Source: Roseateles asaccharophilus (GTDB lineage: Bacteria; Pseudomonadota; Gammaproteobacteria; Burkholderiales; Burkholderiaceae_C). From it: 64,000 nucleotides of DNA. This document shows positions 57,357 to 59,681 of the stretch, piece after piece (position 1 is the first letter of the stretch; every line of letters begins with the position of its first letter). The notes beneath the pieces are model-generated. The model ran no database searches. It was not told the origin of the DNA and was given only the letters and a program-made list of their open reading frames with translations. The stretch is taken from contig NZ_SNXE01000007.1 of NCBI RefSeq assembly GCF_004362405.1, positions 124,001-188,000 of the forward strand, given 5' to 3'. The translations under genes and the position numbers were made by a program.

Positions 57357-57857
57357 ATGAGCTCCACCGAACTCGCCCCAGCACCCTCGACCGCCCTGGT
57401 CACCACCGCAGCCACCGACACGGTGAGGCAATGCCTGACCTTCCGCGTTGGCGCCGAGGAATACGGCATCGACATCCTGAAGGTTCAGGAAATCCGCTCC
57501 TACGAGAGTCCGACCCGGATCGCGAATGCGCCGCCCTTTGTGAAGGGCGTGGTCAATCTGCGGGGGGTGATCGTGCCCATCGTGGACCTTCGTCTGCGCC
57601 TGGGTCAAGCCGCGGAGTACAACGGCTTCACCGTGGTGATCATCCTGAACGTGCTGGGCCGCGTGATCGGCGTTGTGGTGGACTCGGTGTCCGATGTGCT
57701 GGAACTGGGCACCGACACCATCAAGCCGCCGCCCGAGATGGGCGCCGCCATCGATGCCCGGCACATCACCGGGCTGGGCCGCATCGGCGACCGCATGCTC
57801 ATCCTGCTCGATATCGAGCGCATGGTGGCCAGCCCTGATTTCGGTCTGGTCGACTGA
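57357..57857 (+). CDS. cheW: CheW-type chemotaxis scaffold protein
   Basis: 166 residues. The CheW fold is clear: QCLTFRVGAEEYGIDILKVQEIRSYES, then NAPPFVKGVVNLRGVIVPIVDLRLRLG and VVVDSVSDVLELGTDTIKPPP. CheW links methyl-accepting receptors to the CheA kinase. No cheA, cheY or receptor gene is nearby, so it is an orphan here; its neighbours are a hybrid kinase upstream and rpoH downstream. It has a 30-residue N-terminal extension rich in Ala and Thr. Other chemotaxis genes are presumably elsewhere in the genome. Confidence 0.93.
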   Translation: MSSTELAPAPSTALVTTAATDTVRQCLTFRVGAEEYGIDILKVQEIRSYESPTRIANAPPFVKGVVNLRGVIVPIVDLRLRLGQAAEYNGFTVVIILNVLGRVIGVVVDSVSDVLELGTDTIKPPPEMGAAIDARHITGLGRIGDRMLILLDIERMVASPDFGLVD

Positions 57858-57992
57858 GTCCATACCGGGCCCCAAGCCCGCAGCCCTGGCTGCTCTTGGC
57901 CCGAGCGCCAGGCTTCATGCGGGCTAGAGCGTTAGTAAACACCAACGCGGCGGGCAGTCACATCACGTCGCCGCGAGCCTGTGTGTCCGCAC

Positions 57993-58019
57993 TTAGCACT
58001 CTCTTCGGTAGAGTGCTAA
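57993..58019. promoter_or_regulatory. CIRCE operator (HrcA-binding site) upstream of rpoH
   Basis: A perfect CIRCE inverted repeat, TTAGCACTC at 57993-58001, nine-base spacer, GAGTGCTAA at 58011-58019, matching the classic consensus at all 18 arm bases. It ends 48 bp before the rpoH start. HrcA repressor binds such sites in front of groE and dnaK operons and releases them under heat stress. Overlapping promoter-like hexamers are TTAGCA at 57993-57998 and TAATAT at 58017-58022, 18 bp apart, so HrcA could sit directly on the promoter. Confidence 0.93.
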
Positions 58020-58067
58020 TATAAGCATGTCGGGAGCCCTGGGCTCCCACTGGCTGGAGGATATGGA

Positions 58068-58985
58068 ATGAGCAACCCCACCGCACTGGCTGTTCGCGAC
58101 CCTTGGGCACTGGTTCCCTCGCTTGGCAATCTGGACGCCTACATCTCGGCCGTCAACCGCCTGCCGATGCTGACGCCCGAGGAGGAGCTGTCCTTTGCCC
58201 GCCGGCTGCGCGAGAGCGGTGATCTGGAGGCTGCGGGCCGCCTGGTGCTCTCGCATCTGCGCCTGGTGGTGTCGATCTCGCGCCAGTATCTGGGCTACGG
58301 CCTGCCCCAGGGCGATCTGATCCAGGAAGGCAATGTGGGCCTGATGAAGGCCGTCAAGCGCTACGACCCCGAGCAGGGCGTGCGCCTGGTCAGCTATGCC
58401 ATGCACTGGATCAAGGCCGAGATCCACGAGTACATCCTGAAGAACTGGCGCATGGTCAAGGTCGCCACGACCAAGGCCCAGCGCAAGCTCTTCTTCAATC
58501 TGCGCTCCATGAAGCACAGCCTCAAGGAAGAGGCGGCCGAGGGCCAGACCCATCGCAACACGCTCACCGAAAGCGAGCTGGAGCATGTGGCGCGCGAGCT
58601 GAACGTCAAGCGCGAGGAAGTGCTGGAGATGGAAACCCGCATGGCGGGTGGCGATGTGGCCCTGGAGCCCCAGGGCGAGGACGACGGCGAGCAGGCCTTC
58701 GCCCCGATCGCCTATCTGGCCGATGAGCGTCATGAACCGACCCGCGTGCTGGAGTCCCGCAGCCGCGACGAGCTGGCCGGCAACGGCCTTGCCCGCGCCC
58801 TGGATGTGCTGGACGAACGCAGCCGCCGCATCGTCGAGGAGCGCTGGCTCAAGGTGAACGACGACAACTCGGGCGGCATGACCCTGCACGAGCTGGCGGC
58901 CGAGTACGGCGTCTCTGCCGAGCGCATCCGCCAGATCGAGGTGGCCGCCATGAAGAAGATGAAGAAGGCCCTGGTCGCCGCCTGA
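58068..58985 (+). CDS. rpoH: RNA polymerase heat-shock sigma factor (sigma-32)
   Basis: 305 residues with the expected regions: 1.2-2.1 (MLTPEEELSFARRLRESGD), core-binding 2.2 (GDLIQEGNVGLMKAVKRYDP), 2.4 (SYAMHWIKAEIHEYILKNW), the RpoH box QRKLFFNLRSMK and region 4.2 (LHELAAEYGVSAERIRQIEVAAMKKMKKAL). The ribosome-binding site GGAGG lies upstream of ATG 58068. It directs RNA polymerase to chaperone and protease promoters after heat shock. The perfect CIRCE site upstream adds HrcA control to the usual regulation. A strong hairpin terminates the gene, separating it from the convergent sco gene. Confidence 0.97.
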   Translation: MSNPTALAVRDPWALVPSLGNLDAYISAVNRLPMLTPEEELSFARRLRESGDLEAAGRLVLSHLRLVVSISRQYLGYGLPQGDLIQEGNVGLMKAVKRYDPEQGVRLVSYAMHWIKAEIHEYILKNWRMVKVATTKAQRKLFFNLRSMKHSLKEEAAEGQTHRNTLTESELEHVARELNVKREEVLEMETRMAGGDVALEPQGEDDGEQAFAPIAYLADERHEPTRVLESRSRDELAGNGLARALDVLDERSRRIVEERWLKVNDDNSGGMTLHELAAEYGVSAERIRQIEVAAMKKMKKALVAA

Positions 58986-59011
58986 TCTCGGCGCCCTGCC
59001 CCACCCAAGAA

Positions 59012-59035
59012 AAAGCCCCGGCATGCCGGGGCTTT
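59012..59035. terminator. Bidirectional terminator between rpoH and sco
   Basis: A perfect 24-base palindrome (AAAGCCCCGGCA / TGCCGGGGCTTT) 26 bp after the rpoH stop and 28 bp before the end of sco, with short A and T runs on its two flanks. It can terminate both convergent genes. Confidence 0.85.
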
Positions 59036-59063
59036 GTTCATTCCGAGGCGGCCGTGGGCGGTC

Positions 59064-59681
59064 TTACTTCTCGGCCAGCAGCAGCTTGATATCGTCCACC
59101 AGGGCCTGGGCGCCCGAGCCATAGCGCGAGAACACGCGCACCCGGCCCTGGGTGTCGAAGATGAAGCTGGCCGCCGTGTGGTCGATGGTGTACGACCCTT
59201 CGGTCTTGCCCGGCACCTTGGAATAGAAGACCTTGAACTCCTTGGCCACGGCCTTGGTCTGCTCCTCGCTGCCGCGCAGGGCCACAAAGCTGGGATCAAA
59301 GCTCTGCAAATAGGCCTTGAGCAGCTCGGGCGTATCGCGCTCAGGGTCCACCGTGACAAAGATGCCCTGCACCCGCTCACCATCCGGCCCCAGGGCCTTC
59401 TTCACCTGGGCCAGCTCGGCCAGGGTGGTGGGGCAGACATCCGGACACTGGGTGAAGCCGAAGAACACCACCAGGACCTTGCCCTTGAAGTCGCCCAGGG
59501 TGCGCTCGCGGCCATCCTGATCGGGCAGTTTGAGCTCGCGCGCATAGGCTGCGCCGGTGAGGTCGATGCCCTTGAAGGCGGGCTTGCTGGCCCTGTCGCA
59601 GCCGGCCAGCAGGGCAAGAAGCCCGGCCGCGGCGGCCGAGAGCATGAGCCGGCGTGCCGGCTGGAGGACGGAGTTCTTCAT
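59064..59681 (-). CDS. SCO1/SenC-family copper chaperone lipoprotein
   Basis: 205 residues. Lipobox-like LLAGC near residue 28 gives a membrane-anchored lipoprotein. The thioredoxin-like domain has the copper-binding CxxxC in FTQCPDVCPTTLAEL and the histidine ligand in TIDHTAASFIFD. SCO proteins deliver copper to the CuA site of cytochrome c oxidase. It lies 4 bp downstream of ctaB in a block ending with coxC. A second protein with a CxxxC motif is encoded three genes away at 61729-62433. Confidence 0.92.
   Translation of the reverse strand: MKNSVLQPARRLMLSAAAAGLLALLAGCDRASKPAFKGIDLTGAAYARELKLPDQDGRERTLGDFKGKVLVVFFGFTQCPDVCPTTLAELAQVKKALGPDGERVQGIFVTVDPERDTPELLKAYLQSFDPSFVALRGSEEQTKAVAKEFKVFYSKVPGKTEGSYTIDHTAASFIFDTQGRVRVFSRYGSGAQALVDDIKLLLAEK

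Follow-up and report, generated by a model that had tools for sequence, protein, structure and literature searches.

Does a CIRCE element directly in front of rpoH, the gene for the heat-shock sigma factor sigma-32, place this gene under control of the HrcA repressor, and is such an arrangement unusual? The question arises from a window of Roseateles asaccharophilus DNA (the whole stretch analyzed here, 64,000 nt) for which a perfect CIRCE had been predicted at 57993-58019, 48 bp before rpoH. A sequence scan bore this out exactly. The element, on the forward strand, is a perfect 9-9-9 inverted repeat that reads TTAGCACTC-TCTTCGGTA-GAGTGCTAA, i.e., with 0 mismatches to TTAGCACTC-N9-GAGTGCTAA, its 3' end lies 48 bp before the ATG at 58068, and it is the sole match with up to 3 mismatches in the window (shuffled-window mean 0.02). 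The ORF that begins there (58068-58985, forward strand, 305 aa) scores 398.8 bits against the RpoH equivalog model TIGR02392 (cut-off 323.1), which rules out a wrong gene call, and 414.7 bits against NF005143; a Shine-Dalgarno-like GGAGGA (58056-58061, forward strand) precedes its ATG by 6 nt. On the same strand, the stop codon of a CheW-like upstream gene (57357-57857; NF007903, E 5e-56, 189 bits, below the curated cut-off of 260) lies 135 bp before CIRCE.

The presumed 5' leader of rpoH contains an inverted repeat of its own, GGGAGCC-CTG-GGCTCCC (58032-58048, forward strand), with similar repeats in both same-genus loci (L005 and L006), and other small hairpins are predicted at the rpoH leader in some relatives. 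An unusually stable leader in the window was considered and discarded, as positions 58029-58090 are no more stable than shuffled sequence (z 0.15).

CIRCE sites and hrcA within the genome and across relatives

The original prediction had named the lack of an hrcA gene as an observation that would speak against it, but this objection is ruled out because a profile search found a single hrcA in the genome (PF01628, 229.3 bits against a cut-off of 22.2). The features by which an HrcA/CIRCE operator is recognized, i.e., the inverted repeat, an hrcA gene in the same genome, and a location at or close to the predicted promoter of a heat-shock gene, are all found here. Across the genome (4.36 Mb in 22 contigs) there are two CIRCE in total, the one at rpoH and one with 1 mismatch before groES; at dnaK, the stretch retrieved for the best-scoring locus contains none (closest match 7 mismatches). 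The same picture emerges from 30 relatives (own genome included), all of which encode hrcA. Exactly two CIRCE with up to 2 mismatches are present in 25 of these genomes, the remaining five having 0, 1, 1, 3, and 3; an element precedes 27 of their 28 rpoH loci, and one with up to 2 mismatches precedes the best groES locus in each of the 29 genomes that yielded one. The predicted HrcA regulon in this group would therefore consist mostly of groESL plus rpoH. We conclude that the CIRCE at rpoH is real and probably works as an HrcA operator.

To place the site among its counterparts, we compared 108 rpoH loci of Burkholderiales, 28 from the 30 relatives (the two genomes without an rpoH match are both incomplete) and 80 from a genome collection. 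The latter are the best of at least 547, so that the sample favors near relatives, and most of them are titled as Burkholderiales or by genus, some vaguely or oddly. Searching up to 600 bp upstream of rpoH, we found a CIRCE with up to 3 mismatches in 106 of these 108 loci, 80 of the 108 being such best matches. Of the two exceptions, L067 has no more than 6 bp before rpoH, and L021 (genome G026) carries a relic with 4 mismatches even though this genome has hrcA and a groES CIRCE. For alignment, we removed L039, which duplicates L008, and added L171 of the same family, which again gives 106 CIRCE-bearing loci. Across these the spacers have diverged, while the arms are nearly invariant. In one locus (L214, genome G039) we noticed a tandem pair of CIRCE-like copies upstream of rpoH, the outer with one mismatch as judged by eye.

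These comparisons leave little of the novelty that had been claimed for the strength and placement of the window site. Perfect elements occur at 76 of the 106 aligned loci (own included), and the projected distance from CIRCE to the rpoH start has a median of 47 bp with a range of 11-100. For Geobacter sulfurreducens, moreover, a perfect CIRCE was predicted in 2004 at position -51 relative to rpoH, and that report describes the same TTAGCACTC-N9-GAGTGCTAA before rpoH together with a CIRCE at groESL (PMC545781). The regulons differ in that the Geobacter element is also found before hrcA-grpE-dnaK-dnaJ (PMC545781), whereas groES is the only other site of the window genome. The window site is thus a further case of an already known arrangement, and an ordinary one for its group, since nearly all close relatives examined share it.

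For a wider view, 66 genomes were drawn evenly from the class Gammaproteobacteria in the sense of GTDB (own included), 61 of which encode RpoH; leaving out the own genome and G088, where the gene lies at a contig end, we counted 60 loci in 59 genomes. CIRCE with up to 3 mismatches is present at 38 of these 60 loci from other families, i.e., it is common before rpoH of the class in this sample. Its presence follows hrcA closely: 35 of the 38 genomes with CIRCE at rpoH encode hrcA, which is absent from 18 of the 21 without (Fisher 2e-9 for the 59 genomes, from a hand-filled table and with kinship ignored). An element that is mostly kept or absent together with the gene for its presumed repressor is what would be expected of a working HrcA operator. 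Three genomes carry CIRCE at rpoH without detected hrcA (G034, G045, and G067, at loci L146, L208, and L152), with assemblies that are 62, 97, and 81% complete. Conversely, G042, G055, and G066 encode hrcA and lack CIRCE at rpoH; together with G026 and its relic they indicate that the link between HrcA and rpoH is dispensable.

A sample of the whole phylum included 8 loci of the class, of which 2 carry CIRCE (the one in G083 is already part of the class count); the 6 others were scanned for CIRCE alone. Outside the class, none of the 18 loci examined, out of 33 RpoH places in this sample, has CIRCE before rpoH. The 39 other class loci used below are the 38 CIRCE-bearing ones plus L177, with L179 left out because it repeats G083. 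Going by its title, a paper by Permina and Gelfand from 2003 covers the beta and gamma groups. It may already describe CIRCE at rpoH in these groups, so that we do not claim this wide distribution as unpublished.

Promoter-like elements in and around CIRCE

The element had been read as apparently overlapping the rpoH promoter. Aligned on CIRCE, the Burkholderiales rpoH loci have A at position +2 after the element in 102 of 106 cases and T at +3 in all 106, so that the right arm and its flank read TGC-TAA-N-A-T in the manner of an extended -10 element. The T at +3 is also present at 36 of the 39 other class loci, compared with only 2 of 30 groES loci (Fisher 5e-27 for the 106 and 1e-13 for the 39 loci, kinship ignored). 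These groES loci include the second groES of G002 (L141, 3 mismatches), while a second groES of G022 had no locus. As this T is rare at groES CIRCE, HrcA itself seems not to need it. The groESL site of the window genome (L002) illustrates the difference: its operator and presumed regulator are shared with rpoH, but it lacks the T at +3 and sits just downstream of CTTGAA...CCCCTATAAT, which we take to be a sigma-32-like promoter motif, whereas the rpoH CIRCE covers the -10-like region.

In the window, the right arm plus TAT forms the extended -10-like element TG-C-TAATAT (58014-58022, forward strand), recognized by the conserved T at +3. A weak -35-like hexamer, TTAGCA (57993-57998, forward strand), lies 18 bp before TAATAT, though its conservation is no independent evidence because it is part of the left CIRCE arm, and the spacing to the -10-like element would put the transcription start at 58028-58030 on the forward strand. 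Both hexamers match the consensus at 4 of 6 positions, and a sigma-70 consensus scan of 57850-59080 (9 or more matches at the 12 hexamer positions and a spacer of 16-18 nt) found no promoter; the sigma-70 reading at CIRCE therefore rests on conservation. The predicted overlap of operator and promoter is thus backed by the -10-like element at the right edge of CIRCE and not by the 9-of-12 scan, and this pattern suggests that the right arm serves at the same time as part of the operator and as an extended -10-like element of rpoH. Mismatches in the arms also fall unevenly between left and right, with 31 against 4 in the 106 Burkholderiales loci, 12 against 6 in the other class loci, and 12 against 7 at groES, though the difference between the 106 rpoH loci and groES is modest (p 0.04).

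Many relatives have a second promoter-like signal in or near CIRCE. The motif GGAACTT, which is the -35 motif of sigma-E promoters, is found directly upstream of CIRCE in many rpoH loci. We tabulated distances of 8-44 bases from each GAAC near CIRCE to a following TCNNA and found a spacing of 22 in 57 of 78 pairs for the 106 Burkholderiales loci and in 24 of 35 pairs for the 39 other class loci, with no other distance in more than 5 pairs. No such pair occurs near CIRCE at the 30 groES loci. Further upstream of rpoH (-400 to -60), 5 of 63 pairs in the Burkholderiales loci and none of 7 in the other class loci have the spacing of 22. GAAC stands at -11 in 43 rpoH loci, 40 of which have TCNNA at +11. 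In another 25 it stands at -15, and 21 of these have TCNNA at +7; in this second register only the A is informative because the TC belongs to the CIRCE arm. In 77 rpoH loci GAAC is at neither position. Allowing 21-23 bases between -60 and +90, a pair is present at 58 of 106 Burkholderiales loci, 29 of 39 other class loci, and 0 of 30 groES loci, with 40 pairs at -11, 21 at -15, 16 at +34 to +36, i.e., downstream of CIRCE, and 12 elsewhere. A stricter version of the pair occurs in one (L175) of those rpoH loci of the class and phylum samples that lack CIRCE.

The downstream register is seen in L034, L037, L043, L048, L059, L061, L070, and others. In 16 of the 17 loci listed, the -10 of this pair is followed after 6-7 nt by an in-frame rpoH start codon, so that such a promoter could produce an rpoH mRNA with almost no leader. 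A further candidate start lies a few codons upstream in several of the loci.

The window itself contains no GAAC/TCNNA pair 21-23 bases apart between 57601 and 58120, and neither of the two same-genus relatives (G001 and G002) has a sigma-E-type pair at rpoH. No RpoE is recognizable in the window genome, where the best TIGR02939 match reaches 30.5 bits against a cut-off of 236.15; scores are low also in G009, G015, and G026. With neither the pair in the genus nor a recognizable RpoE in the genome, HrcA would, under the composite switch proposed below, be left as the main gate there. The idea that the motif was lost following loss of RpoE found no significant support, as it is present in none of the 4 relatives scoring up to 200 bits with TIGR02939 and in 10 of the 24 with higher scores (Fisher p 0.27; 28 relatives, G001 counted as RpoE-positive and G026, with its 4-mismatch CIRCE, as motif-negative without being scored). 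Moreover, G001 (201.6 bits, below cut-off) and G002 (247.9 bits) have RpoE-like matches yet lack the motif, which argues against a simple link between the two.

Across a large part of the class, HrcA on CIRCE might gate both the housekeeping extended -10 in the right arm and the sigma-E promoter, a composite switch that we propose tentatively and rate somewhat short of even. The -10 of the sigma-E promoter would then fall at the edge of the left CIRCE arm or within the spacer; the sigma-E part occurs in three registers with near-constant spacing. If so, cytoplasmic stress sensed through GroEL and HrcA and envelope stress sensed through RpoE would converge on a single short DNA segment, which raises the question of whether HrcA limits the activation of rpoH by envelope stress. 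A literature search with few subscription journals found no paper joining HrcA, rpoH, rpoE, and "sigma E". We regard this composite, which is seen in relatives and absent from the window itself, as more interesting than the window site.

A known counterpart is found at rpoH of E. coli, where promoter P3 is described as RpoE-controlled (PMC8745692). In E. coli K-12 (L233), a GAAC/TCNNA pair lies 120 bp before the rpoH start, 22 bases apart and of the same kind as in many relatives of the window, but without CIRCE, whereas the pair of these relatives is interleaved with CIRCE or near it. The window shows the reverse of E. coli K-12, with CIRCE present and a P3-type pair absent.

Probable HrcA control of rpoH and rival explanations

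Taken together, the site very probably is an HrcA operator over the rpoH promoter at which repression is lifted when heat titrates GroEL. HrcA, held active by GroEL, would bind CIRCE and cover the -10 region, so that rpoH is transcribed at a low level; upon heat shock, unfolded protein would fill GroEL, HrcA would become inactive, and rpoH would be transcribed and sigma-32 made. Sigma-32 would in turn drive chaperone genes including groESL, itself equipped with CIRCE and a sigma-32-like promoter, and the newly made GroEL would restore HrcA activity. Binding, repression, and feedback at rpoH are here extrapolated from HrcA in other bacteria, where the feedback by GroEL is known. The original prediction of HrcA control is favored by the hrcA gene, conservation of the site amid diverged spacers, its tracking of hrcA, and its overlap with the -10-like element. 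If correct, the heat-shock sigma factor would itself be under a repressor circuit, so that two classical controls would act in series and not in parallel. Such wiring would apply to many Proteobacteria, although textbook E. coli K-12 lacks the operator.

CIRCE could be a minor damper through which bound HrcA only trims basal transcription, with heat control of RpoH being mainly post-transcriptional through an mRNA thermosensor and the action of DnaK and FtsH on sigma-32. Sigma-32 of E. coli K-12 is controlled mainly by translation and turnover, and the 260 bp that precede rpoH in this strain contain no CIRCE (closest match 8 mismatches); the element is likewise missing at rpoH of some genomes that encode hrcA. 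Turnover of RpoH by FtsH is described in PMC8745692. Yet retention of CIRCE at 106 of 108 loci, 80 of them the best of at least 547, and its tracking of hrcA suggest a non-trivial effect, and we regard the damper as doubtful, if worth serious consideration. The same retention, together with the shuffle mean of 0.02 at up to 3 mismatches, rules out a chance palindrome without function, to which we give practically no credence.

That the inverted repeat acts mainly in the RNA appears very unlikely. Transcription from an upstream promoter, for which the 135 bp behind the CheW-like gene would leave room, could place CIRCE in the rpoH leader as a hairpin affecting stability or translation, as has been reported for CIRCE in Bacillus. 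Against this stands the one-sidedness of the mismatches in the 106 sites (31 left, 4 right), which breaks pairing, as do the tracking of hrcA and the -10-like element conserved at the CIRCE edge. Relief of HrcA repression by heat titration of GroEL thus appears to be the likeliest reading of the locus.

A third CIRCE in a same-genus relative

The genome of G002 has a third, perfect CIRCE (L236:1512-1538), which lies 16 bp upstream of a minus-strand CBASS-type operon (L238:6350-8938), counted from its listed start. The operon encodes a cyclase (PDLC00817, 546.8 bits, SMODS), an E2 protein (131 bits), and a 4TM effector (314 bits), and the position of the element suggests HrcA control of this anti-phage system. 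Among 399 genomes of the order there are two distant relatives of the cyclase, and the stretches retrieved for these contain no CIRCE (closest matches 6 and 7 mismatches); further relatives are found on 11 plasmid records, all below 60% identity. Adjoining the operon, an ORF at L238:2852-4738 matches the candidate defense model PDC-S39 with 678 bits.
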